Assembly (NCBI GenBank): GCA_020248945.1
Contig: JADCGQ010000005.1
Coordinates: 1 to 64,000, forward strand
Length of the DNA: 64,000 nt
Direction of reading: 5' to 3'
Source of the DNA: Rubrivivax sp.
Lineage (GTDB): Bacteria > Pseudomonadota > Gammaproteobacteria > Burkholderiales > Burkholderiaceae_C
The stretch's first letter is position 1; the number at the start of each line of letters is the position of its first letter. This document shows positions 29,360-39,864 of the stretch, piece after piece. The position numbers were made by a program, and so were the translations under genes. The notes beneath the pieces were generated by a model. That model was not told the origin of the DNA, ran no database searches, and worked only from the letters and a program-made list of their open reading frames with translations.

Positions 29360-29360
<1 letters not shown>

Positions 29361-31549
29361 TGCGGCTGGCGGCGGCGCTGGCGCTGGTGGCGCTGCCGGC
29401 GCAGGCGCAGCAGCCGGCGCCTGCGGCGCCAGCCGCCTCGGCGCCCAGCACCTCGGTCACCGTGCAGGGCCGCCGCGACAACGAGGCCGACGAACGCCGC
29501 CACAGCGTGGTCGGCCTCACGGTCGTCGGCCGTGACGAGCTCGACGCCCACGGCGACATCAGCGTGCTCGACGTGCTGGCCCGCGTGGCCGGCATCGACA
29601 TCGACGGCGACATGCCGCGCCTGCGCGGCCTGGGCGGCGGCTACACGCAGATCCTGCTCAACGGCGAGCCCGCGCCGCCTGGCTTTTCGATGGACATGCT
29701 GGCGCCGGCGGACATCGAGCGCATCGAGGTCATCAAGGGCCCGACGGCCGAGTTCGGTGGCGTGGCCGGCACCATCAACATCATTCTGCGCCGCGCGCCG
29801 CGGCTGAAGCAGACGGAGCTGCGGCAGTCGCTCGGCTACCGCGCCGTGGCGCCGCAGGGCAGCACCAGCGTGTCGCATGGCGACCGTGTCGGCGCGCTGG
29901 GCTTCCATCTGCCGATCACGCTGTTCACCTGGGCCAACGGCCAGCAGGTCACGAGCGAGCGCGACTCGCGTGATGCGGCTGGCACCCGCAGCCTGCGCCG
30001 CACCGAGCAGCAGGACCGCTGGCTCGGTGGCGGCGTGCAGTTCTCGCCGCGGCTGGACTGGACGCTCAGCGAGCGCGACGCGCTGCAGTGGCAGGTGCTG
30101 CTGCAGGCCCACCGCTCGCGCAACGCCGGCGAACGCGAGACCGTGCCGCTGGCAGGCCCAGCGCCGAGCACGCTGCAGTCGGCCTACCGCTCGCGCGGTG
30201 AGTGGGAGCTGGCGCGCAGCCAGTGGCAGTGGGTGCACAAGGCCGCGAGTGGCGCCCGGCTCGAGCTGAAGGCGGCGCTGCAGCAGTCGCTCGCCACCGG
30301 CCAGAGCCGCTCGGTCGGGCAGGGCGCGGGCGGCGTGCTCACCACCGCGCGCGAGAGCGGACATCGGCAAGAGGGACGGCAGCTGTCGCAGGGCGGGCGC
30401 GTGCGGCTGCCGGCCGGCGAGCACCGCACCTGGAGCGGCGGCTGGGACGTGGAGCACCGTGAACACGACGAGCAGCGCGAGTTGGTCGAGAACGGCGTGC
30501 CGCAGCGCACCGGCAGCCTGGGCGTGCCCTTTGCCGGCCGCACGCAACGCGGTGTGGTGTTCGTGCAGCATGAGTGGGCGCCGTCGCCGCGCTGGTCGCT
30601 CTCGACCGCGCTGCGGGGCGAGCAGTGGGCCTTCGAGACCGCCGGCCCGCCAGGCATCGAGCGCCACCGCTACGCGGCGCTGCTGCCGGTGCTGCACCTG
30701 CGCCACGCGCTCGACGACGCCGGCCGCGAGGTGCTGCGCGCCAGCGTCTCGGTGAGCCAACGCGCCCCCGACATCGGCCTGCTGCTGCCGCGCTACAGCC
30801 TGGACGGCACCTACCCGCGCGAAGAGACCAACACGCCGATCACGCCCGACACCGCCGGCAACCCGGCGCTGGCGCCCGAGCGCGCCCGCGGCATCGAACT
30901 GGCCTGGGAGCGCAGTGCCCCGGGCGGTGGGGTGCTCAGCGCCGGCTTCTTCCAGCGCGAGGTGCAGGGGCTGATCCGCCGCCGCATCGCGCTGGAGGTG
31001 GTGAGCGAAGCGCCCGTGCCGCGCTGGGTGAGCCGGCCGGTGAACCTGGGCCGCGCGCACAGCAGCGGGCTGGAGTTCGAGTGGCGGCATCGTGTGCCCG
31101 AGGCCGGCCGTGCCGGCACGGCGCCCGGCGCGGCCCGCGCGGGTGTCACCTGGCGCAGCGCCTTGTCGCTGTACCGTTCGCGCGTGGAGCAGATCGACGA
31201 CCCCGATGCCCGCCTCGAAGGCCAGCCGCCCTGGCGCCTGACGCTGGGCGCCGAGCGCCAGTGGGCGGCCGGCCACGGCGCCGGCGCCACGCTGCTGCAC
31301 ACGCCGGGCTTCTCGACGCAGCAGAGCGACCGCCAGCGCCTGTGGCGCAGCACGCAGACGCGGCTCGATGCGTTCGTGTCGTGGCGCCAGGCGGGTGTCG
31401 GCCAGTGGCGGCTGGCGGTGGTGAACGCGCTGGCGCCGGTGCAGCGCAGCCGCAGCGCGGTGACCGATCTCGACGGCTTCGATGCCAGCGCCGCCACGCA
31501 ACGCGACGGCGTGGCGCAGTGGACGGCCAGCTTCGTGACGAGGTTCTGA
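29360..31549 (+). CDS. TonB-dependent outer-membrane receptor
   Basis: A 729-residue outer-membrane protein. A short signal peptide (about residues 1-16, ending AQA/QQ) is followed by an Ala/Pro-rich spacer and a TonB-box-like segment TSVTVQGRR. The plug domain is at about 45-145 (VLDVLARVAGIDI, YTQILLNGEPAPPGF, DIERIEVIKGPTAEFGGVAGTINI). The rest is a beta barrel ending in Phe (ASFVTRF), the usual signal for BAM insertion. It imports a chelate or glycan; no ligand-specific motif is clear. The ATG at 29360 overlaps the tex stop (TGATG), and its own stop overlaps the patatin gene in the same way. Confidence 0.92.
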
Positions 31550-32652
31550 TGGGCCGGTCCCGCGCCTTGCGCATCCTCGCCGGGCCGCTCGCGCGCGCCC
31601 ACCTGCACGAGCGCGGTCTGGCGGCGGGCGACGTGCGCGCCGTGCCGGCGGCTGCCGGGGGTGCCAAGGGCCTGGTGCTGCTGCCGCTCGATCGCTTCCT
31701 GTTCGGCCACTGGCTGCCGCAGTCGACGCAGACCGTGCACCTGCTGGGCGCCAGCATCGGCGCCTGGCGCATGGCCGCGGCCTGCGTGCGCGCTGACGGC
31801 GGGGCCGACGCGGCGCTGGCCGAGCTGGCCGAGGACTACATCACCCAGAGCTACCCGCACGCCCCGGGCCGCATGCCCACCGCCGCGGTGGTGTCCGAGC
31901 ACTTCCAGCGCAAGCTGCAGCAGCGCCTGGGCGCGCGCGCCGCCGAGGTGCTGACGCACCCGCGCTATCGGCTGCACGTGTTCACGAGCCGCGGCCGCGG
32001 GCTGCTGCACCGGCCCGGCCGCCTGCGCCACCCGCTGGGCTGGGCCAGCGCCTTTGCGGCGAATGCGATGCACCGCAAGGCGCTGGGCGGCTGGCTCGAG
32101 CGCATCGTCTTCGCCGACCCGCGCGAGCCGCTGCCGCTGCCGCTGAACGACTACCCCACGCGCCAGGTGCCGCTGACGGCGCACAACCTGACGCCGGCCG
32201 TGCTGGCCAGCTGCGCCATCCCCTTCGTGCTCGAGGCCGTGCGCGACGTGCCCGGCGGCCCGCCCGGCAGCTACTGGGACGGCGGCATCACCGACTACCA
32301 CCTGCATCTGGACTACAGCGCCTTCGGCGACGGCCTCGTGCTCTACCCGCACTTCGGCCCGCACGTCGTGCCCGGCTGGCTCGACAAGCCCTGGAAGCGC
32401 CGCCACGCGGCCACCGAGGCGCTGTCGCGTGTGGTGCTGCTGGCGCCGCGCGAGGAGTGGATCGCATCACTGCCCGGTGGCAAGCTGCCCGACCGCCGCG
32501 ACTTCAAGACCTGGGGCGACGACGAGGCCGGCCGCCAGGCGGTGTGGCGCGGCGCGCATGACGAATCGCAGCGCCTGGCAGACGAGTTCGCGGAGTGGGT
32601 CGCGCGTGGCGGCCGAGCGGGGCAGGGCGTGGAGATCGAGCCGCTGCCCTGA
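31549..32652 (+). CDS. Patatin-like phospholipase
   Basis: A 367-residue putative serine hydrolase. The nucleophile elbow is LLGASIGAWRMA (GxSxG, Ser near residue 68) and the catalytic Asp lies in SYWDGGITDYHL near 245, the Ser-Asp dyad of the patatin fold. AAGGAKGLVLLP near 36 could supply the oxyanion hole. No signal peptide is seen, so the site of action is probably cytosolic or membrane-associated. The ATG at 31549 shares a base with the TonB receptor stop. It is the last gene before the REP-like cluster. Confidence 0.85.
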   Translation: MGRSRALRILAGPLARAHLHERGLAAGDVRAVPAAAGGAKGLVLLPLDRFLFGHWLPQSTQTVHLLGASIGAWRMAAACVRADGGADAALAELAEDYITQSYPHAPGRMPTAAVVSEHFQRKLQQRLGARAAEVLTHPRYRLHVFTSRGRGLLHRPGRLRHPLGWASAFAANAMHRKALGGWLERIVFADPREPLPLPLNDYPTRQVPLTAHNLTPAVLASCAIPFVLEAVRDVPGGPPGSYWDGGITDYHLHLDYSAFGDGLVLYPHFGPHVVPGWLDKPWKRRHAATEALSRVVLLAPREEWIASLPGGKLPDRRDFKTWGDDEAGRQAVWRGAHDESQRLADEFAEWVARGGRAGQGVEIEPLP

Positions 32653-32660
32653 CATCCGCT

Positions 32661-32757
32661 ATTCGGGCTGAGCCTTTCTCCATCCGGGCTGAGCCTGTCG
32701 AAGCCCAACCGTTCGCCCTGAGCCTGTCGAAGGGTCGGGGTGAGCCTGTCGAAGCCC
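32661..32757. repeat. Cluster of four REP-like palindromic units
   Basis: Four units share the core GAGCCTGTCGA, or a truncated form of it. Unit 1 (32664-32677) is truncated. Unit 2 (32686-32706) has GGGCT/AGCCC arms. Unit 3 (32715-32735) has GCCCT/AGGGT arms. Unit 4 (32737-32757) has GGGGT/AGCCC arms with one mismatch. Arms vary in a compensating way while the loop is constant. The cluster lies between the patatin gene and the thrS promoter region and could terminate or stabilise the upstream transcript. Confidence 0.8.
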
Positions 32758-32776
32758 TGGTGAGGGCAAAGCTGCC

Positions 32777-32782
32777 TACAAT
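32777..32782 (+). promoter_or_regulatory. Putative -10 box of the thrS leader
   Basis: TACAAT matches five of six bases of the sigma-70 -10 consensus and stands 47 bases before the leader-peptide start. No convincing -35 hexamer is present 16-18 bases upstream, where the last REP-like unit ends. Confidence 0.4.
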
Positions 32783-32828
32783 CTGCCCGAGTTTCGACGC
32801 AACAAGGGCAAGGAAAGGCACGACGGTT

Positions 32829-32870
32829 ATGACACCGCGGACTACGAGCTTCACCGCCACCGGCTTCTAG
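32829..32870 (+). CDS. Threonine-rich leader peptide of the thrS operon
   Basis: A 13-codon open frame, [13 protein letters not shown], with five threonine codons (2, 5, 6, 9 and 11). AGGAAAGG at 32811-32818 is a strong ribosome binding site ten bases before the ATG. A terminator and then threonyl-tRNA synthetase follow, the arrangement of a transcription attenuator sensing charged tRNA-Thr. Leader codons GCGG (32837-32840) can pair with CCGC at 32881, and CCGGC at 32860 with GCCGG at 32871. Ribosome stalling at Thr codons would break these pairings. The role is inferred from the layout. Confidence 0.72.
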
Positions 32871-32917
32871 GCCGGCCGATCCGCGCACGTCCGAACGACC
32901 CACCGTCCCCTCGAACC

Positions 32918-32942
32918 AAGCGCGGCACCCCCGCGCTTTTTT
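32918..32942 (+). terminator. Rho-independent attenuator before thrS
   Basis: An 8-bp stem, AAGCGCGG pairing with CCGCGCTT, with a five-base CACCC loop, runs straight into a T-tract and ends 20 bases before the thrS ATG. CCGCGC at 32881-32886 is identical to the 3' arm and can pair with the 5' arm instead, giving a candidate antiterminator. Confidence 0.88.
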
Positions 32943-32962
32943 CATGCCCTGAAGGACACTCC

Positions 32963-34870
32963 ATGATCCAGATCACGCTCCCCGACGGCGCCCGCCGCGA
33001 GTACCCCGCTGCACTCACGGTCGGCGAGGTCGCCGCCAGCATCGGCCCCGGCCTGGCCAAGGCCGCGCTCGCCGGCAAGGTGGACGGCCGCGTCGTCGAC
33101 CTCAGCCACCGCATCGAGGCCGACGCCCAGCTCGCCATCGTCACCGACAAAGATGCCGACGGCCTGGAAGTCATCCGCCACAGCACGGCCCACCTGCTGG
33201 CCTACGCGGTGAAGGAGCTGTTCCCCGAGGCGCAGGTGACGATCGGCCCGGTCATCGAAAACGGCTTCTATTACGACTTCGCCTACAAGCGCCCGTTCAC
33301 GCCGGAAGACCTGGCCGCGATCGAGAAGCGCATGGGCGAGCTGGCCGCCAAGAACGAGCCCGTGATCCGCCGCGTGCTGCCGCGCGACGAGGCCATTGCG
33401 CTCTTCAAGGCCCAGGGCGAGCACTACAAGGCCGAGATCATCGGCAGCATCCCCGCCGACCAGGACGTGAGCCTGTACCGCGAAGGTGGCTTCGAAGACC
33501 TGTGCCGCGGCCCGCACGTGCCCAGCACGGGCCGCCTGAAGCACTTCAAGCTGATGAAGGTGGCTGGCGCCTACTGGCGCGGCGACCAGGCCAACGAGCA
33601 GCTGCAGCGCATCTACGGCACGGCCTGGGCCACGAAGGACGAGCTGCAGGGCTACCTGCGCATGCTCGAAGAGGCCGAGAAGCGCGACCACCGGCGCCTG
33701 GGCCGTGAGCTCGACCTGTTCCACCTCGACGAGCACAGCCCCGGCACGGTGTTCTGGCACCCCAAGGGCTGGACGCTGTGGCAGGAGGTGGAACAGTACA
33801 TGCGGCGCATCTACCGCGACAACGGCTACCAGGAGGTCAAGGGCCCGCAGATCGTCGACCGCGTGCTCTGGGAGAAGTCCGGCCACTGGGAGAAGTACCG
33901 CGAGGCCATGTTCACGACCGAGTCGGAAAAGCGCGAGTACGCGCTCAAGCCGATGAACTGCCCCGGCCACATCCTGATCTTCAAGCAGGGCATCAAGAGC
34001 TACCGCGACCTGCCGCTGCGCTACGGCGAGTTCGGCCAGTGCCACCGCAACGAGCCCACGGGCGGCCTGCACGGCATCATGCGCGTGCGCGCCTTCACGC
34101 AGGACGACGGACACATCTTCTGCACCGAAGACATGATCCTGCCGGAGTGCGTGGCCTACACGGCGCTGCTGCAGAAGGTCTACAAGGACTTCGGCTTCAC
34201 GGACATCATCTACAAGGTGGCCACGCGCCCCGAGGCGCGCATCGGCTCGGACGCCATCTGGGACAAGGCCGAGCACGCGCTGATGGAAAGCCTGCGCGCC
34301 AGCGGCTGCGAGTTCGTCATCGCCCCCGGCGACGGCGCCTTCTACGGCCCGAAGATCGAGTACACGCTGAAAGACGCCATCGGCCGCCAGTGGCAGTGCG
34401 GCACGATGCAGGTCGACTTCTCCATGGCCGAGCGCCTGGGCGCCGAGTATGTGGCCGAGGATTCCAGCCGCCGCCATCCCGTCATGCTGCACCGGGCCAT
34501 CGTCGGGAGCCTGGAGCGCTTCATCGGCATCCTGATCGAGCAGCACGCCGGTGCGCTGCCCGCCTGGCTGGCGCCGGTGCAGGTGGTGGTGGCCTCGATC
34601 AGCGAGCCGACGGCCGATTACGCGTCGGAAGTGGTGAAATCGCTGCAAAAACAAGGAGTTAGGGCTCAAGCTGATTTGCGTGCCGACAAGATTGGCTATA
34701 AAATTCGCGAGCATTCGATGCAGAAGGTCCCGTACATCCTTGTCGTAGGCGACAAGGAAAAGGCGGACGGGGCCGTCGCCGTGCGCGCCCGGGGCAACCA
34801 GGATCTGGGCACGATGCCGCTGACGAGCTTTGCCGAGAGGCTGCTCGCCGACATCGCTGCCAAGGTCTGA
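32963..34870 (+). CDS. thrS: Threonyl-tRNA synthetase
   Basis: A 635-residue class II synthetase, close in length to the Escherichia coli enzyme (642). The N-terminal TGS domain is [15 protein letters not shown] to about residue 62. The editing domain contains [16 protein letters not shown] near 73. The catalytic core has the zinc-site [16 protein letters not shown] near 330, [19 protein letters not shown] and [19 protein letters not shown]. The anticodon-binding domain forms the C-terminus. It charges tRNA-Thr and edits Ser. The gene is preceded by a leader peptide and attenuator, and its 3' end holds an AT-rich promoter-like island serving infC. Confidence 0.97.
34676..34704 (+). promoter_or_regulatory. 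Putative promoter inside thrS for infC-rpmI-rplT
   Basis: TTGCGT at 34676-34681 and TAAAAT at 34699-34704 are separated by 17 bases; the latter lies within TATAAAATT. The surrounding 75 bases use codons rare elsewhere in this gene (AAA, CAA, GGA, GTT, AGG, ATT, TAT), suggesting selection on the DNA rather than the protein. Internal infC promoters within thrS are known in Escherichia coli. Confidence 0.6.
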
Positions 34871-34942: not shown

Positions 34943-35491
34943 ATCGCTACCTTCATGGACCGCCGCGTGCCCAACGCGGAGCGCAAGCACCGGTTGAACC
35001 GGGAAATCATGGCGCTGCAGGTGCGCCTGAACGGGGTCGAGAACGAGCCGCTGGGCATCGTCCCCATTCAAGAGGCGTTGCGCATGGCAGGGGAGCTGGA
35101 CGTCGATCTGGTCGAGATCGCTGCCACCGCCGACCCGCCCGTGTGCCGGTTGATGGACTACGGCAAGTTCAAGTACCAAGAGCAGAAGAAGGCCGCTGAA
35201 GCCAAGAGCAAGCAGAAGGTCATCGAGATCAAGGAAGTGAAGTTCCGCCCCGGCACCGACGACGGCGACTACGCGATCAAGATGCGCAACCTGCGCCGCT
35301 TCATCGCCGAAGACGGTGACAAGGGCAAGGTGACGCTGCGCTTCCGGGGCCGCGAGATCACCCACCAGGAGATCGGCATGCGCATGCTGGAACGCATCCG
35401 CGACGAGCTCTCCGATGTGGCGATGGTCGAGCACATGCCCAAGCTCGAAGGCCGGCAGATGATCATGGTGCTGGCGCCCAAGCGAAAGTAG
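34943..35491 (+). CDS. infC: Translation initiation factor IF-3, probably starting with AUC
   Basis: A 182-residue IF-3. The N-domain has [29 protein letters not shown], the linker is Lys/Gln-rich ([17 protein letters not shown]), and the C-domain contains [23 protein letters not shown] and [18 protein letters not shown] place the start at ATC 34943 because AGGAG at 34930-34934 is eight bases before it, whereas it is 20 bases before the first ATG at 34955. A non-canonical AUU start is the basis of IF-3 autoregulation in Escherichia coli, and AUC would serve equally. The added residues are (M)ATF before MDRR. The alternative is the ATG at 34955 (178 residues). Confidence 0.9.
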
Positions 35492-35525
35492 TTCCGAAGC
35501 AGGGCGGCTGGCAAGAGATTCGGCA

Positions 35526-35606
35526 GCCAGGTCTGGTCGACCTGGCAGCTGAAAAGAAGCGGCTGCAGGCCGACAAGCGCACCGAGCCCTCGGTGCCGCC
35601 TGCAGC
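35526..35606 (+). promoter_or_regulatory. Structured mRNA leader of rpmI-rplT
   Basis: Three perfect stems lie in the 139-base gap after infC: GCCAGGTC/GACCTGGC (35526-35533 with 35539-35546), GCTGCAGGC/GCCTGCAGC (35562-35570 with 35598-35606), and inside the latter GCACCGAG/CTCGGTGC (35579-35586 with 35589-35596). The second ends 25 bases before the rpmI start. Ribosomal protein L20 represses rpmI translation through a leader structure in Escherichia coli, so this is a candidate L20 operator; no T-tract is present. Confidence 0.65.
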
Positions 35607-35630
35607 AGCAATCAAAGAAGGAGCATTCAC

Positions 35631-35834
35631 ATGCCCAAGATGAAGACCAAGAGCGGCGCGAAGAAGCGCTTTCGCGTACGCCCGGGTGGCACCGTCAAGC
35701 GGGGCCAGGCGTTCAAGCGCCACATCCTCACCAAGAAGAGCACCACCCGCAAGCGTCAGCTGCGTGGCGCCGTGAACGTGCACGAGACCAACATGGGCCA
35801 CATGGCCCAGATGTTGCCGTTCGCCGGTCTCTGA
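35631..35834 (+). CDS. rpmI: 50S ribosomal protein L35 (bL35)
   Basis: A 67-residue, strongly basic ribosomal protein, [20 protein letters not shown] at the start and a normal length for bL35. It binds 23S rRNA in the large subunit. AAGGAG lies seven bases before the ATG. It is preceded by the folded leader and followed after 29 bases by rplT. Confidence 0.97.
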
Positions 35835-35863
35835 TCCACCACGACTGAACAAGGAGCACACAC

Positions 35864-36220
35864 ATGCCTCGCGTCAAACGTGGTGTCATCGCCCACGCAC
35901 GTCACAAGAAGATCCTCGCCCTCGCCAAGGGCTTCCGCGGCCGCCGCAAGAACGTCTTCCGCATCGCCAAGCAGGCGGTGATGAAGGCGGGCCAGTACGC
36001 CTACCGTGACCGTCGTACCCGCAAGCGGGTGTTCCGCCAGCTCTGGATCGCGCGCATCAATGCCGCGAGCCGGGAACTGGGCGTCACGTACAGCAAGTTC
36101 ATGGCCGGCCTGAAGAAGGCGCAGATCGACATCGACCGCAAGGTCCTGTCCGACATGGCCATCCACGACCCGGCGGGCTTCAAGAGCATCGTCGAGAAGG
36201 TGAAGGCCCAGCTCGCTTGA
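35864..36220 (+). CDS. rplT: 50S ribosomal protein L20 (bL20)
   Basis: A 118-residue basic protein beginning [20 protein letters not shown] and containing [29 protein letters not shown], typical of bL20. It binds 23S rRNA early in large-subunit assembly and in enterobacteria also represses its own operon. AAGGAG precedes the ATG. The end of the gene is followed by a terminator before pheS. Confidence 0.97.
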
Positions 36221-36278: not shown

Positions 36279-36310
36279 AAGGCCGTCACCTTCGGGGGCG
36301 GCCTTTTTTT
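36279..36310 (+). terminator. Rho-independent terminator between rplT and pheS
   Basis: AAGGCCG at 36279-36285 pairs with CGGCCTT at 36299-36305, closing a 13-base loop that contains TTCG, and a T-tract follows. It lies 59 bases after the rplT stop and 33 bases before pheS, so it separates the ribosomal genes from pheST, or acts as a partial terminator or attenuator. Confidence 0.88.
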
Positions 36311-36342
36311 GTCCGTTTTTCTTGCCTGTTTTCCACCCGTCC

Positions 36343-37398
36343 ATGAACGATCTCGACTCGCTCGTGCAACACGCGCGCTCTGCGTTCGACGCGGCCCCCA
36401 CGGCGGCCGAGCTCGAAAACGCCAAGGCACGCTTCCTCGGCAAGAGCGGCAGCCTCACCGAGTTGCTCAAGGGCCTGGCCGCGCTGCCGCCCGAGGCCAA
36501 GAAGGCCCGCGGCGCCGAGATCAACCAGGCCAAGCAGCAGGTCGAGGCGCTGCTCGCCGCCGCACGCGAGCGCCTGGCGCAGGCCGAGCTCGAGGCGCAG
36601 CTGCGCGCCGAGGCGCTGGACGTGTCGCTGCCCGGCCGCAGCCGCGGCACCGGCGGCCTGCACCCCGTGAGCCGCACCATCGAGCGCATCGAGGCCATCT
36701 TCTCGAGCATGGGTTTCGACGTCGCCGAAGGCCCCGAGATCGAGACCGACTGGATGAGCTTCACGGCGCTGAACAACCCCGAGAATCACCCGGCGCGGTC
36801 GATGCAGGACACCTTCTACGTCGAGCTGAAAGACGCCGAAGGCCGCTGGCTGAACCTGCGCCCGCACACGAGCCCGATGCAGGTGCGCTACGCCAGGGCG
36901 CACGCAGCGCGCCACGCCCGCGCGATCGCCGAGGGCGGATCCGTGCCCGAGGTGCGCGTCATCGCGCCGGGCCGCGTGTACCGCGTCGACAGCGACGCCA
37001 CGCACTCGCCCATGTTCCACCAGATCGAAGGCCTGTGGCTGGGCGAAAACGTCAGCTTCAAGGACCTGAAGGTCACCTTCGCGACGCTGGTGCGCGAGTT
37101 CTTCGAGACCGACGACTTCGACGTGCGCTTCCGGCCGAGCTTCTTTCCGTTCACCGAGCCCAGCGCCGAGATCGACATCCGCTTCGGCAGCGGTCCGCTC
37201 GCCGGCAAGTGGCTCGAAGTGGCCGGCTCCGGCCAGGTGCACCCGAACGTGGTGCGCAACTTCGGCCTCGACCCCGAGCAGCAGATCGGCTTTGCCTTCG
37301 GCATCGGTGCCGACCGCTTTGCCATGCTGCGCTACGGCATCGACGACCTGCGCCTGATGTTCGACGGCGACCTGCGCTTCCTGTCGCAGTTCCGCTGA
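36343..37398 (+). CDS. pheS: Phenylalanyl-tRNA synthetase alpha subunit
   Basis: A 351-residue class II catalytic subunit. An N-terminal coiled-coil (residues about 10-90, [18 protein letters not shown] onward) precedes the catalytic core with [74 protein letters not shown] and [20 protein letters not shown]. It activates Phe and forms an alpha2-beta2 enzyme with PheT. The ATG at 36343 matches the family start but has no clear ribosome binding site. The frame stays open upstream to an ATG at 36220 overlapping the rplT stop, crossing the terminator; I regard that extension as untranslated. Confidence 0.96.
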
Positions 37399-37428
37399 AG
37401 CCCGCACGAACCTGACCCCGAGATCGAG

Positions 37429-39864
37429 ATGCAATTCCCCGAGTCCTGGCTGCGCGAGTTCTGCGATCCGCCGCTGTCCACCCAAGCCCTGGCCGACCTG
37501 CTGACGATGAGCGGCATGGAGGTCGAAGAACTGCGGCCCGTGGCGCCACCCTTCAACGGCATCGTCGTGGCCGAGATCCTGACGGCCGAGCAGCACCCGC
37601 AGGCCGACCGCCTGCGCGTGTGCACGGTGGCGGCCGGCGAGTTTTCGAAGGATGGCCCGCTCCAGATCGTCTGCGGCGCGCCGAACGCCCGTGTCGGCAT
37701 CAAGGTGCCGCTCGCGGTGGTGGGTGCGGAGCTGCCGCCCGGCGAGGATGGCAAGCCGTTCAAGATCGGCGTGGGCAAGCTGCGCGGCGTGCAGAGCTAC
37801 GGCATGTTGTGCTCGGCGCGCGAGCTCAAGCTGTCCGAGGACCACGGCGGACTGCTCGAGCTGGCGTCTGATGCGCCCGTGGGCACGGACCTGCGAGCGC
37901 ATCTGAAGCTCGACGACACCATCTTCACGCTCAAGCTCACGCCCAACCTGGCGCACGGCCTCAGCGTGTATGGCGTGGCGCGCGAGGTGGCTGCGCTCAC
38001 TGGCGCGCCGCTGAAGCAACCCTGCTTCCCGCCCGTGGCGCCGGGCACCGAGCGCAAGCTGCCGGTGCGCGTGGAAGCGGCCGACCTGTGCGGCCGCTTC
38101 TCGGGCCGCGTGGTGTTGGGCGTGAACCCGCAAGCGCCGACTCCTGCCTGGATGGTGGATCGCCTGGCGCGTTGCGGTCAGCGCAGCGTGAGCGCCCTCG
38201 TCGACATCTCGAACTACGTGATGTTCGAGTACGGCCGGCCTTCGCACATCTTTGATCTCGACAAGATCCACGGCGGCCTTGTCGTGCGCTGGGGGCGGGT
38301 CGGCGAGACGCTGAAGCTGCTCAATGGCAACACCGTCGAACTCGATGCGAAGGTGGGCGTGATCGCCGACGAGCAAGCGGTCGAATCACTCGCCGGCATC
38401 ATGGGCGGCGACGCCACCGCGGTGGGCGACGGCACGCAGAACATCTACGTCGAGGCCGCCTTCTGGTGGCCCGAGGCCGTGCAGGGCCGCTCGCGCCGCT
38501 ACGCCTTCAGCACCGACGCCGGCCACCGCTTCGAGCGCGGTGTCGACCCGGCCTCGACGGTGGAGCACATCGAGCGCATCACGCAGCTGGTGATCGACAT
38601 CTGTGGCACGCCGGCCACCGTGGCCGGCCCCATCGACGACCAGACCCTGGCGCTGCCCGAGCGCAAGCCGGTGGCGCTGCGCGTGGCGCGTGCGGCCAAG
38701 GTCATCGGCATGCCGGTGACGCAGGCGCAGTGCGCCGATGTCTTCAGCCGCCTCGGCCTGCCGTTCACGCAGGCCGACGGCGTGCTGACCGTCACGCCGC
38801 CGAGCTGGCGCTTCGACATCGCCATCGAGGAAGACCTCATCGAGGAGGTGGCCCGCGTCGTTGGCTACGACAAGCTGCCGGCCACGCCCACCGTGGCGCC
38901 CACGCAGGCGCGCGTGCGCCGCGAAGGCCAGCGCTCCGCCCACGACGTGCGCCACGCGCTGGCCGGCCTGGGCTTCCAGGAGACCATCGGCTTCTCCTTC
39001 GTCGAAGAACGCTGGGAGCGCGAGCTCGCGGGCAACGCCGATCCGATCCGCGTGCTCAACCCCATTGCCGCGCCCTTGGCGGTGATGCGCTCCAGCCTCA
39101 TCGGCAGCCTCGTGCAGGCGCTGCGCCACAACCTGGCGCGCAAGCTGACGCGGGCGCGGCTGTTCGAGATCGGCCGCGTCTACCGCAAGCACGCGGGCGC
39201 GGCCGATGGCCCGCTGGCCGTGGCGGGTGTCGAGCAGCCGATGCGCGTGGCCGCGCTCGCCTTCGGCCCGGCTGCGCCGGCGCAATGGGGCAGCGCCGAG
39301 CGCGCCACCGACTTCTTCGACATCAAGGGCGAGCTCGAGGCGCTGCTGGCGCCGGCCGTGCTGCGCTTCGAGGCCACGGCGCATCCGGCGCTGCATCCGG
39401 GCCGCTCGGCCGCCGTGTGGCTGGGCGATCGCGCCATCGGCTTTGTGGGCGAGCTGCACCCGCGCTGGCGCCAGGCCTACGAGCTGCCGCAGTCGCCGCT
39501 GGTCTTCGAACTGGAGCTCGATGCTGTGCTGGCGCGCGAGGTGCCGGTGTTCGCGACGGTGTCGCGCCGGCAGCCGGTGCAGCGCGACGTGGCGCTGGTG
39601 GTGCGCGATGGCGTGTCGCACGACGCGCTGGTGGGCGCGCTGCGGGCCGATCCAGCCGGGCTCATCCGTGCGGCGACGTTGTTCGACGTGTGGAAGCCCA
39701 CCCGTGGCGCGGCCAGCGGCCTCGACGACAGCGAGCGCAGCCTCGCCATCCGGCTTGAACTGCTGGACTTCGATCAGACGCTCACCGACGATCGCATCGA
39801 AGCCACGGTGCAAGCCGCCGTGGCCCGCGCGGCCGCTGCCTTTGGCGCGCGCCTGCGCGCCTGA
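37429..39864 (+). CDS. pheT: Phenylalanyl-tRNA synthetase beta subunit
   Basis: An 811-residue subunit. Domains in order: N-terminal B1 and tRNA-binding EMAP-like domain ([21 protein letters not shown] near 45), the B3/B4 editing domain ([21 protein letters not shown] near 260), B5 (near 400-480, ending [15 protein letters not shown]), the inactive catalytic-like domain, and the C-terminal anticodon-binding ferredoxin-like domain ([19 protein letters not shown] near 718). It edits Tyr-tRNA-Phe. The gap to pheS is 30 bases. The length is slightly above that of the Escherichia coli protein (795). Confidence 0.97.

Follow-up and report, generated by a model that had tools for sequence, protein, structure and literature searches.

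In Escherichia coli, the product of thrS, threonyl-tRNA synthetase, binds a tRNA-like operator in its own mRNA and blocks translation. Amino-acid attenuators of the thrL-thrABC type are known from enterobacteria, and the T-box antiterminators of synthetase genes in Firmicutes do without a leader peptide, the tRNA itself binding directly to the leader RNA. Attenuation of amino-acid and aminoacyl-tRNA operons was reportedly treated by Lopatovskaya, Seliverstov and Lyubetsky in 2010, and that work may already contain the prediction of a thrS attenuator; we noticed no report of a betaproteobacterial thrS attenuator in the open-access literature. Passages of PMC1262725 describe attenuators of synthetase genes, namely pheST in gammaproteobacteria and trpS and leuS in Streptomyces, and also mention T-box antiterminators. 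The initial annotation of the DNA studied here, which is from a Rubrivivax genome, had proposed that a translation-coupled attenuator with a threonine-rich leader peptide heads thrS. We compared this locus with its relatives and conclude that thrS is very probably controlled by a classical ribosome-mediated transcription attenuator that senses the supply of threonyl-tRNA.

The window, by which we mean the whole 64-kb stretch of DNA analysed, belongs to a 4.57-Mb genome sequence that comprises 89 contigs. Its thrS gene is followed by infC, rpmI, rplT, pheS, pheT and the gene for IHF-alpha (Table 1). The genes from thrS to rplT point in the same direction and are possibly co-transcribed. By eye, an ATC at 34943, 8 nt past AGGAG, may replace the listed ATG at 34955 as the start of infC. 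Between rplT and pheS there is, again by eye, a hairpin (AAGGCCG/CGGCCTT) followed by seven T residues (36279-36310), which a site of the terminator scan (36296-36314) overlaps; no Phe-rich leader ORF was seen by eye in front of it. The attenuator had been said to head infC-rplT-pheST as well. The gene order agrees with this, but control of pheST through the attenuator is not established because the further hairpin and T7 separate rplT from pheS. Upstream of thrS, the interval 29360-32652 contains genes for a TonB-dependent receptor and a patatin-like phospholipase. Just upstream of the presumed promoter, a 22-nt repeat around CTGAGCCTGTCGAAG occurs four times (32664-32757), with start-to-start spacings of 21, 29 and 22 nt. 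Elsewhere in this genome, a threonine leader directly before hom was considered and rejected, since hom (L260) overlaps the preceding ORF and thus no leader fits there.

Table 1. Positions of the predicted thrS control elements and of the genes downstream (numbering of the window).
Feature	Position	Strand	Evidence
-10-like hexamer TACAAT, presumed thrS promoter	32777..32782	+	sequence; TANRAT in relatives
Shine-Dalgarno-like, purine-rich AAGGAAAGG of the leader ORF	32810..32818	+	sequence
Leader ORF, 13 codons, stop TAG	32829..32870	+	Thr enrichment, frame conservation in relatives
Segment 1 (CGCGGA, inside Pro-Arg-Thr codons), partner of segment 2	32836..32841	+	fold; conserved pairing position
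Hairpin around the leader stop codon (32860-32865 with 32870-32875)	32860..32875	+	fold
Segment 2 (TCCGCGC), partner of segment 1 or of the terminator 5' arm	32880..32886	+	fold, alignment, swap test
Intrinsic terminator: 8-bp stem 32918-32925/32931-32938, loop 5, T6 at 32937-32942	32918..32942	+	terminator scan; covariation
Segment 3 (GCGCGG), antiterminator partner of segment 2 and core of the terminator 5' arm	32920..32925	+	fold, alignment
Shine-Dalgarno-like TGAAGGA of thrS	32950..32956	+	sequence
thrS, threonine--tRNA ligase; gene controlled	32963..34870	+	TIGR00418, 714 bits
infC, rpmI (35631-35834), rplT (35864-36220), downstream	34955..36220	+	TIGR00168, TIGR01032, TIGR00001; rpmI ORF
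pheS (36343-37398), pheT (37429-39864), behind a further terminator-like hairpin	36343..39864	+	TIGR00468, TIGR00472

The region ahead of thrS consists of a leader ORF, a GC-rich spacer and a terminator. The frame with five threonine codons was found as annotated, with threonine at codons 2, 5, 6, 9 and 11 of 13, and the strong ribosome binding site ascribed to it corresponds to AAGGAAAGG, 10 nt upstream of the ORF. By eye, a GAAAGG-like stretch occupies the same position in relatives whose leader peptide, like that of the window, belongs to the MTPRT group. The -10-like hexamer lies 52 nt before the leader ATG, and hexamers of the form TANRAT cluster about 50 nt before the ATG of MTPRT leaders; 37 of 50 such leaders, including the window, have one at 25-80 nt (1.7 expected). 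Transcription would be expected to start near 32789. A sigma-70 scan around the leader found no full promoter. The terminator had been placed right before thrS, and its T6 does end 20 nt before the gene. Its hairpin alone has a folding energy of -12.4 kcal/mol, and a terminator scan of 32650-33000 detected this terminator together with a single minus-strand site, two sites in all against 0.3 (sd 0.7) in shuffled sequence. No T-box matched the Rfam covariance models in the window or in 32700-33000. The sole Rfam match at gathering score in the window was a tRNA, and 32700-33000 gave only a sub-threshold match to MDR-NUDIX (17 bits, cut-off 54.9). In the genome sequence, which is 91.9% complete, the only occurrence of the pattern ATGACNCCNCGNACNAC is the one in the window.

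Folding of the leader with the spacer and of the spacer with the terminator 5' arm gave the alternative helices of an attenuator. An early pairing annotated as 32837-32840/32881-32884 proved to be the middle of a 6-bp helix (32836-32841/32880-32885), and a second one, 32860-32864/32871-32875, was recovered with one additional loop-side U-G pair; both are in the minimum-energy fold of leader plus spacer. The candidate antiterminator (32881-32886/32920-32925) is present in the minimum-energy fold of spacer plus terminator 5' arm. Pairing of segment 2 with segment 1 and with segment 3 is mutually exclusive, and 2:3 pairing excludes the terminator. The duplexes of the window itself were not stronger than those formed with shuffled spacers (p = 0.185 for leader:spacer, p = 0.160 for spacer:terminator). 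The locus combines three predicted elements of an attenuator: a short leader ORF in a conserved frame with five cognate codons among 13, an intrinsic terminator between this ORF and thrS, and an antiterminator that overlaps the terminator 5' arm.

From these elements we infer how the promoter, the ribosome and the terminator would act together. RNA polymerase would start near 32789, and a ribosome would begin the leader at 32829. With ample threonyl-tRNA the ribosome would reach the stop codon (32868) and leave, segments 1 (32836-32841) and 2 (32880-32885) would pair, and segment 3 would be free, so that the terminator (32918-32942) would form and transcription would end before thrS. With threonyl-tRNA in short supply the ribosome would wait at threonine codon 5 or 6 (32841-32846) and cover segment 1; segments 2 and 3 would then pair (32881-32886/32920-32925), the terminator would be blocked, and thrS would be transcribed. 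Segment 1 would be covered by a ribosome whose A site holds codon 5 or 6, and would be released by one that finishes at 32868-32870.

To place the window among its relatives, we used 252 regions: 217 unbiased regions, 34 biased ones and the window. The unbiased regions are 79 of 80 named thrS loci (in the one left out, L080, the match starts inside the gene), the closest being from Rubrivivax, Roseateles, Methylibium, Piscinibacter and other Burkholderiales, and 138 regions of the same order found by ThrS similarity. These 138 come from 135 genomes, three of which have a second copy; G119 and G132, where the matches lacked the gene start, were left out. The biased regions belong to the same family and were chosen by DNA likeness to the leader (36 minus 2). 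Two regions were dropped before the count: L118 (the second match of G005), which was rejected as a thrS leader because it is not located ahead of that gene and resembles coding sequence, and L087, in which the sequence ends before thrS.

We searched all 252 regions for short ORFs ahead of a terminator with at least three threonines in six codons. Such ORFs were present in 91 regions, compared with 10.0 in shuffles; the 91 comprise 60 unbiased regions (out of 217), 30 biased ones (out of 34) and the window. The only other clear excesses were for valine (36 vs 5.0) and glutamate (10 vs 1.2), the remaining amino acids being near or below the shuffled counts; arginine-rich ORFs were not enriched (20 vs 28.2). 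Both excesses are mostly explained by other sequences: in-frame reading of a tRNA-Val gene accounts for 33 of the 36 Val-rich ORFs, and 8 of the 10 Glu-rich ORFs are the tail of an upstream gene. A tRNA-Val gene (anticodon GAC) lies directly upstream of thrS or its leader in all nine betaproteobacterial relatives searched (L030, L037, L040, L042, L050, L058, L059, L068 and L070). Because of the excess of Thr-rich ORFs over shuffles, judged from sequence, a chance origin of the leader layout is untenable.

For later tests, seven of the 91 ORFs were removed by hand as off-target or doubtful (L124, L238, L027, L155, L249, L161 and L050), although L124 and L027 each have another leader, of the MTPRT group. 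L095 and L113 were also dropped, and merging of identical leaders left 81 for the duplex-energy test and 79 for the swap, fold and codon tests. In the helix and codon tests 28 of the 79, about a third, were chosen by similarity; the p values therefore overstate the support, since the leaders are related and about a third were selected for resembling that of the window.

The coding frame was examined independently of threonine content. In the 217 unbiased regions, CGAACT is preceded within 18 nt by an ATG 56 times; the two are in frame in 55 of these, mostly with two codons in between (42). In 14 further occurrences no ATG lies that close; some of these belong to leaders that begin with GTG or start farther away (L049, L059, L205), and others look like chance. 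The encoded peptides vary by group (MTPRTT..., MFKRTTTTRISR, MSFRTTTTGTL..., MFRTTTEAGN, MAVRTTTTHP) around a constant Arg-Thr core. Among 53 distinct leaders picked by ATG and CGAACT rather than by threonine content, threonine follows the core at +1 in 28, at +2 in 32, at +3 in 16 and at +4 in 11, and at +7 in none of 40. These motif-selected leaders have 1-7 threonine codons, with only one or two in 15 of 53.

Conservation of the helices was assessed in alignment A1, which contains 50 of 53 MTPRT references (L234, L095 and L113 were left out, and L010 was entered by hand-set coordinates). In the terminator, 94.4% of cells are paired, with 25 double-change cells compared with 9.8 in shuffles. 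The 1:2 helix has 71.6% of its cells paired, and no more than 50.9% when slid; for the 2:3 helix the respective values are 78.0% and at most 51.4%. The covariation of both helices in the 50 aligned leaders is within shuffles (113 of 500 reach the score for 1:2 and 75 of 500 for 2:3), because the segments hardly vary. The initial annotation had named conserved threonine codons, a conserved terminator and covarying pairings as what relatives should display. The codons and the terminator are conserved, and covariation is present in the terminator; the 1:2 and 2:3 helices do not covary beyond shuffles, but their positions are kept.

We also compared leaders with their own and with foreign spacers. 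In a swap test of 79 leaders, the spacers fitted their own terminator 5' arms better than swapped ones (0 of 5000 permutations), a result inflated by relatedness; the leader-spacer fit of the 1:2 helix was weaker and likewise inflated (p = 0.015). Fold energies lay below those of shuffles (n = 79; mean z -0.95 for leader plus spacer, -0.82 for spacer plus terminator arm), and the pairing of segment 1 was stronger than with shuffled spacers (mean z -0.90, n = 78). When duplexes were compared with shuffled spacers sequence by sequence, p was at most 0.05 in 12 of 81 for leader:spacer and 25 of 81 for spacer:terminator; the GC-rich spacers make chance duplexes strong. In the MTPRT group, the leader pairs with the spacer at CGCGAACTAC, the Arg-Thr codons (z -1.23, n = 51; 0.09 to 0.30 at other offsets). 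In other groups the pairing segment lies 8-12 nt further downstream (z -1.14, n = 21; z -1.18, n = 18), and the CGAACT offset gives z -0.20 (n = 21). Leader 6-mers of the other groups matched their own spacers in 19-20% and those of others in 2-3% at the peaks (+9, +10). The comparison is uninformative for the MTPRT group (31% and 29% at best), the leader segment being invariant.

The leader is scattered over the betaproteobacterial order, to judge by a detector that is doubtful for some loci (e.g. L155, L161, L238, L249 and L050) and misses leaders seen by eye in L007, L045 and L048. In the 138 order-set regions it reported leader and terminator in 48 (23 of 51 families), a terminator only in 37 and neither in 53, which amounts to no leader in 90. 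The corresponding numbers for the 79 named loci are 37, 16 and 26. Seven loci keep a terminator before thrS while no leader ORF was detected (L016, L055, L011, L013, L020, L022 and L043), and by eye the hairpin in these is preceded, at only about 15-40 nt, by an A/T-rich -10-like element. The 33 ThrS matches from other orders of the class gave 29 loci with one detection (L272, MSTTTAQR, without CGAACT), perhaps by chance; in L288 and L290, CGAACT is part of an ORF that lacks a terminator. The detector reported no leader for the 14 named loci with non-betaproteobacterial or undecided titles (L063, L065, L069, L071, L073-L079 and L081-L083). The attenuator had been called an uncommon solution. 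This is true only in part: within the order the element is common, if by no means universal, and synthetase genes other than thrS are known to have attenuators.

The near-invariant and rare CGA-ACT pair is the unexpected part and lies outside the textbook scheme, with the window itself as an exception. Arg-Thr is present in 72 of 79 dereplicated Thr-rich leaders, encoded with CGA in 70 and with CGG in two (the window and L009), and the first threonine codon is ACT in 64 of the 72. Without the biased set and the window, the counts are 42 of 43 for CGA and 37 of 43 for ACT. Both codons are rare in the thrS genes of those named loci that have a leader, with CGA at 39 of 976 arginine codons and ACT at 28 of 628 threonine codons; in the thrS of the window the counts are 0 of 46 and 0 of 24. 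All seven leaders without Arg-Thr keep threonine codons, and five (L128, L135, L139, L154 and L163) have ACT at the core threonine place after CTG or CCG (Leu or Pro). In the lineage of the window, segment 2 can still pair with the CGG-bearing segment. Groups that pair downstream of the codon pair retain CGA in 21 of 21 and ACT in 17 of 21, so that outside the MTPRT group CGA-ACT is conserved, as the sequences indicate, although it is on average outside the RNA helix; L164 and L235 are single members that do pair it in their folds.

CGA is decoded through inosine-adenosine wobble. In the his leader of Salmonella, as parts of PMC4046918 describe, the ribosome reads CGA at a slower rate than CGC or CGU, and strong de-attenuation is seen with Arg-Arg pairs that contain CGA. 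By analogy, a brake before the sensing codon is plausible because of this slowness. We considered that the codon pair CGA-ACU, and not mainly the threonine run, is the sensor across betaproteobacterial thrS leaders, an idea that we regard as possible but put forward tentatively. The pair follows the start by 1-5 codons. With peptidyl-tRNA-Arg on CGA, decoding of the next codon would be slowed, and one ACU codon might be enough to sense threonyl-tRNA. Besides groups in which it is on average unpaired, leaders reduced to one or two threonine codons also retain the pair. The conservation may have other causes, such as an RNA contact, a pause site or shared ancestry.

These codon data also bear on whether threonine is the signal at all. 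The leader could sense general translation, arginine or ribosome speed at CGA, with the Arg-Thr core as a fixed slow site and the threonine run secondary, which would fit the near-invariance of CGA in unbiased leaders (42 of 43), the 15 motif-selected leaders with one or two threonine codons, and the slow reading of CGA described in passages of PMC4046918. We consider this improbable: threonine is enriched and arginine is not, the gene controlled is thrS, the leaders that lack Arg-Thr keep their threonine codons, and the window has CGG. It is less probable still that the terminator merely ends upstream transcription or fixes a constant level of thrS, the leader ORF being incidental. Terminators without a detected leader do occur in 53 of 217 unbiased regions (37/138 and 16/79), and in L016 and L055 the -10-like element is, by eye, only about 27 nt before the hairpin, but a constant terminator leaves unexplained the frame (55 of 56), the threonine run, the rare dicodon and the conserved alternative helices. 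Autogenous control in the manner of E. coli, by the synthetase bound to a tRNA-like operator that overlaps the thrS ribosome site, is the least credible of these possibilities. That mechanism is known for the E. coli gene, but in the window only 20 nt separate the T-run from the thrS start, nothing in the sequence points to such an operator, and at that site no tRNA-like element was called and no Rfam gathering score was reached. Taken together, the conserved threonine codons, the conserved and covarying terminator and the kept helix positions support the translation-coupled attenuator first proposed for thrS.

If true, a large clade would regulate thrS in its own way, in contrast to the textbook case of E. 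coli, and attenuation would prove to be no rarity among synthetase genes. The CGA-ACU pair would also offer a natural test of whether evolution has used codon-context slowing to sharpen the sensing of starvation, a question that parts of PMC4046918 approach through artificial codon changes in the his leader. Compared with E. coli thrS, the gene is the same, and here termination of transcription is the apparent, predicted control point. With the T-box the thrS leader would share transcription control of synthetases by tRNA charging. Like thrL-thrABC, it has a predicted leader peptide with threonine codons, predicted alternative 1:2, 2:3 and 3:4 helices and an intrinsic terminator before the first gene; unlike thrL-thrABC, it would control thrS rather than a biosynthetic operon and has, in motif-selected leaders, 1-7 threonine codons behind a fixed Arg-Thr core. 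The pheST, trpS and leuS attenuators, in the passages of PMC1262725 that treat them, likewise combine a leader peptide with cognate codons, a terminator and an antiterminator ahead of a synthetase gene. The thrS leader differs from these in its amino acid, its lineage and its near-invariant rare codon pair.
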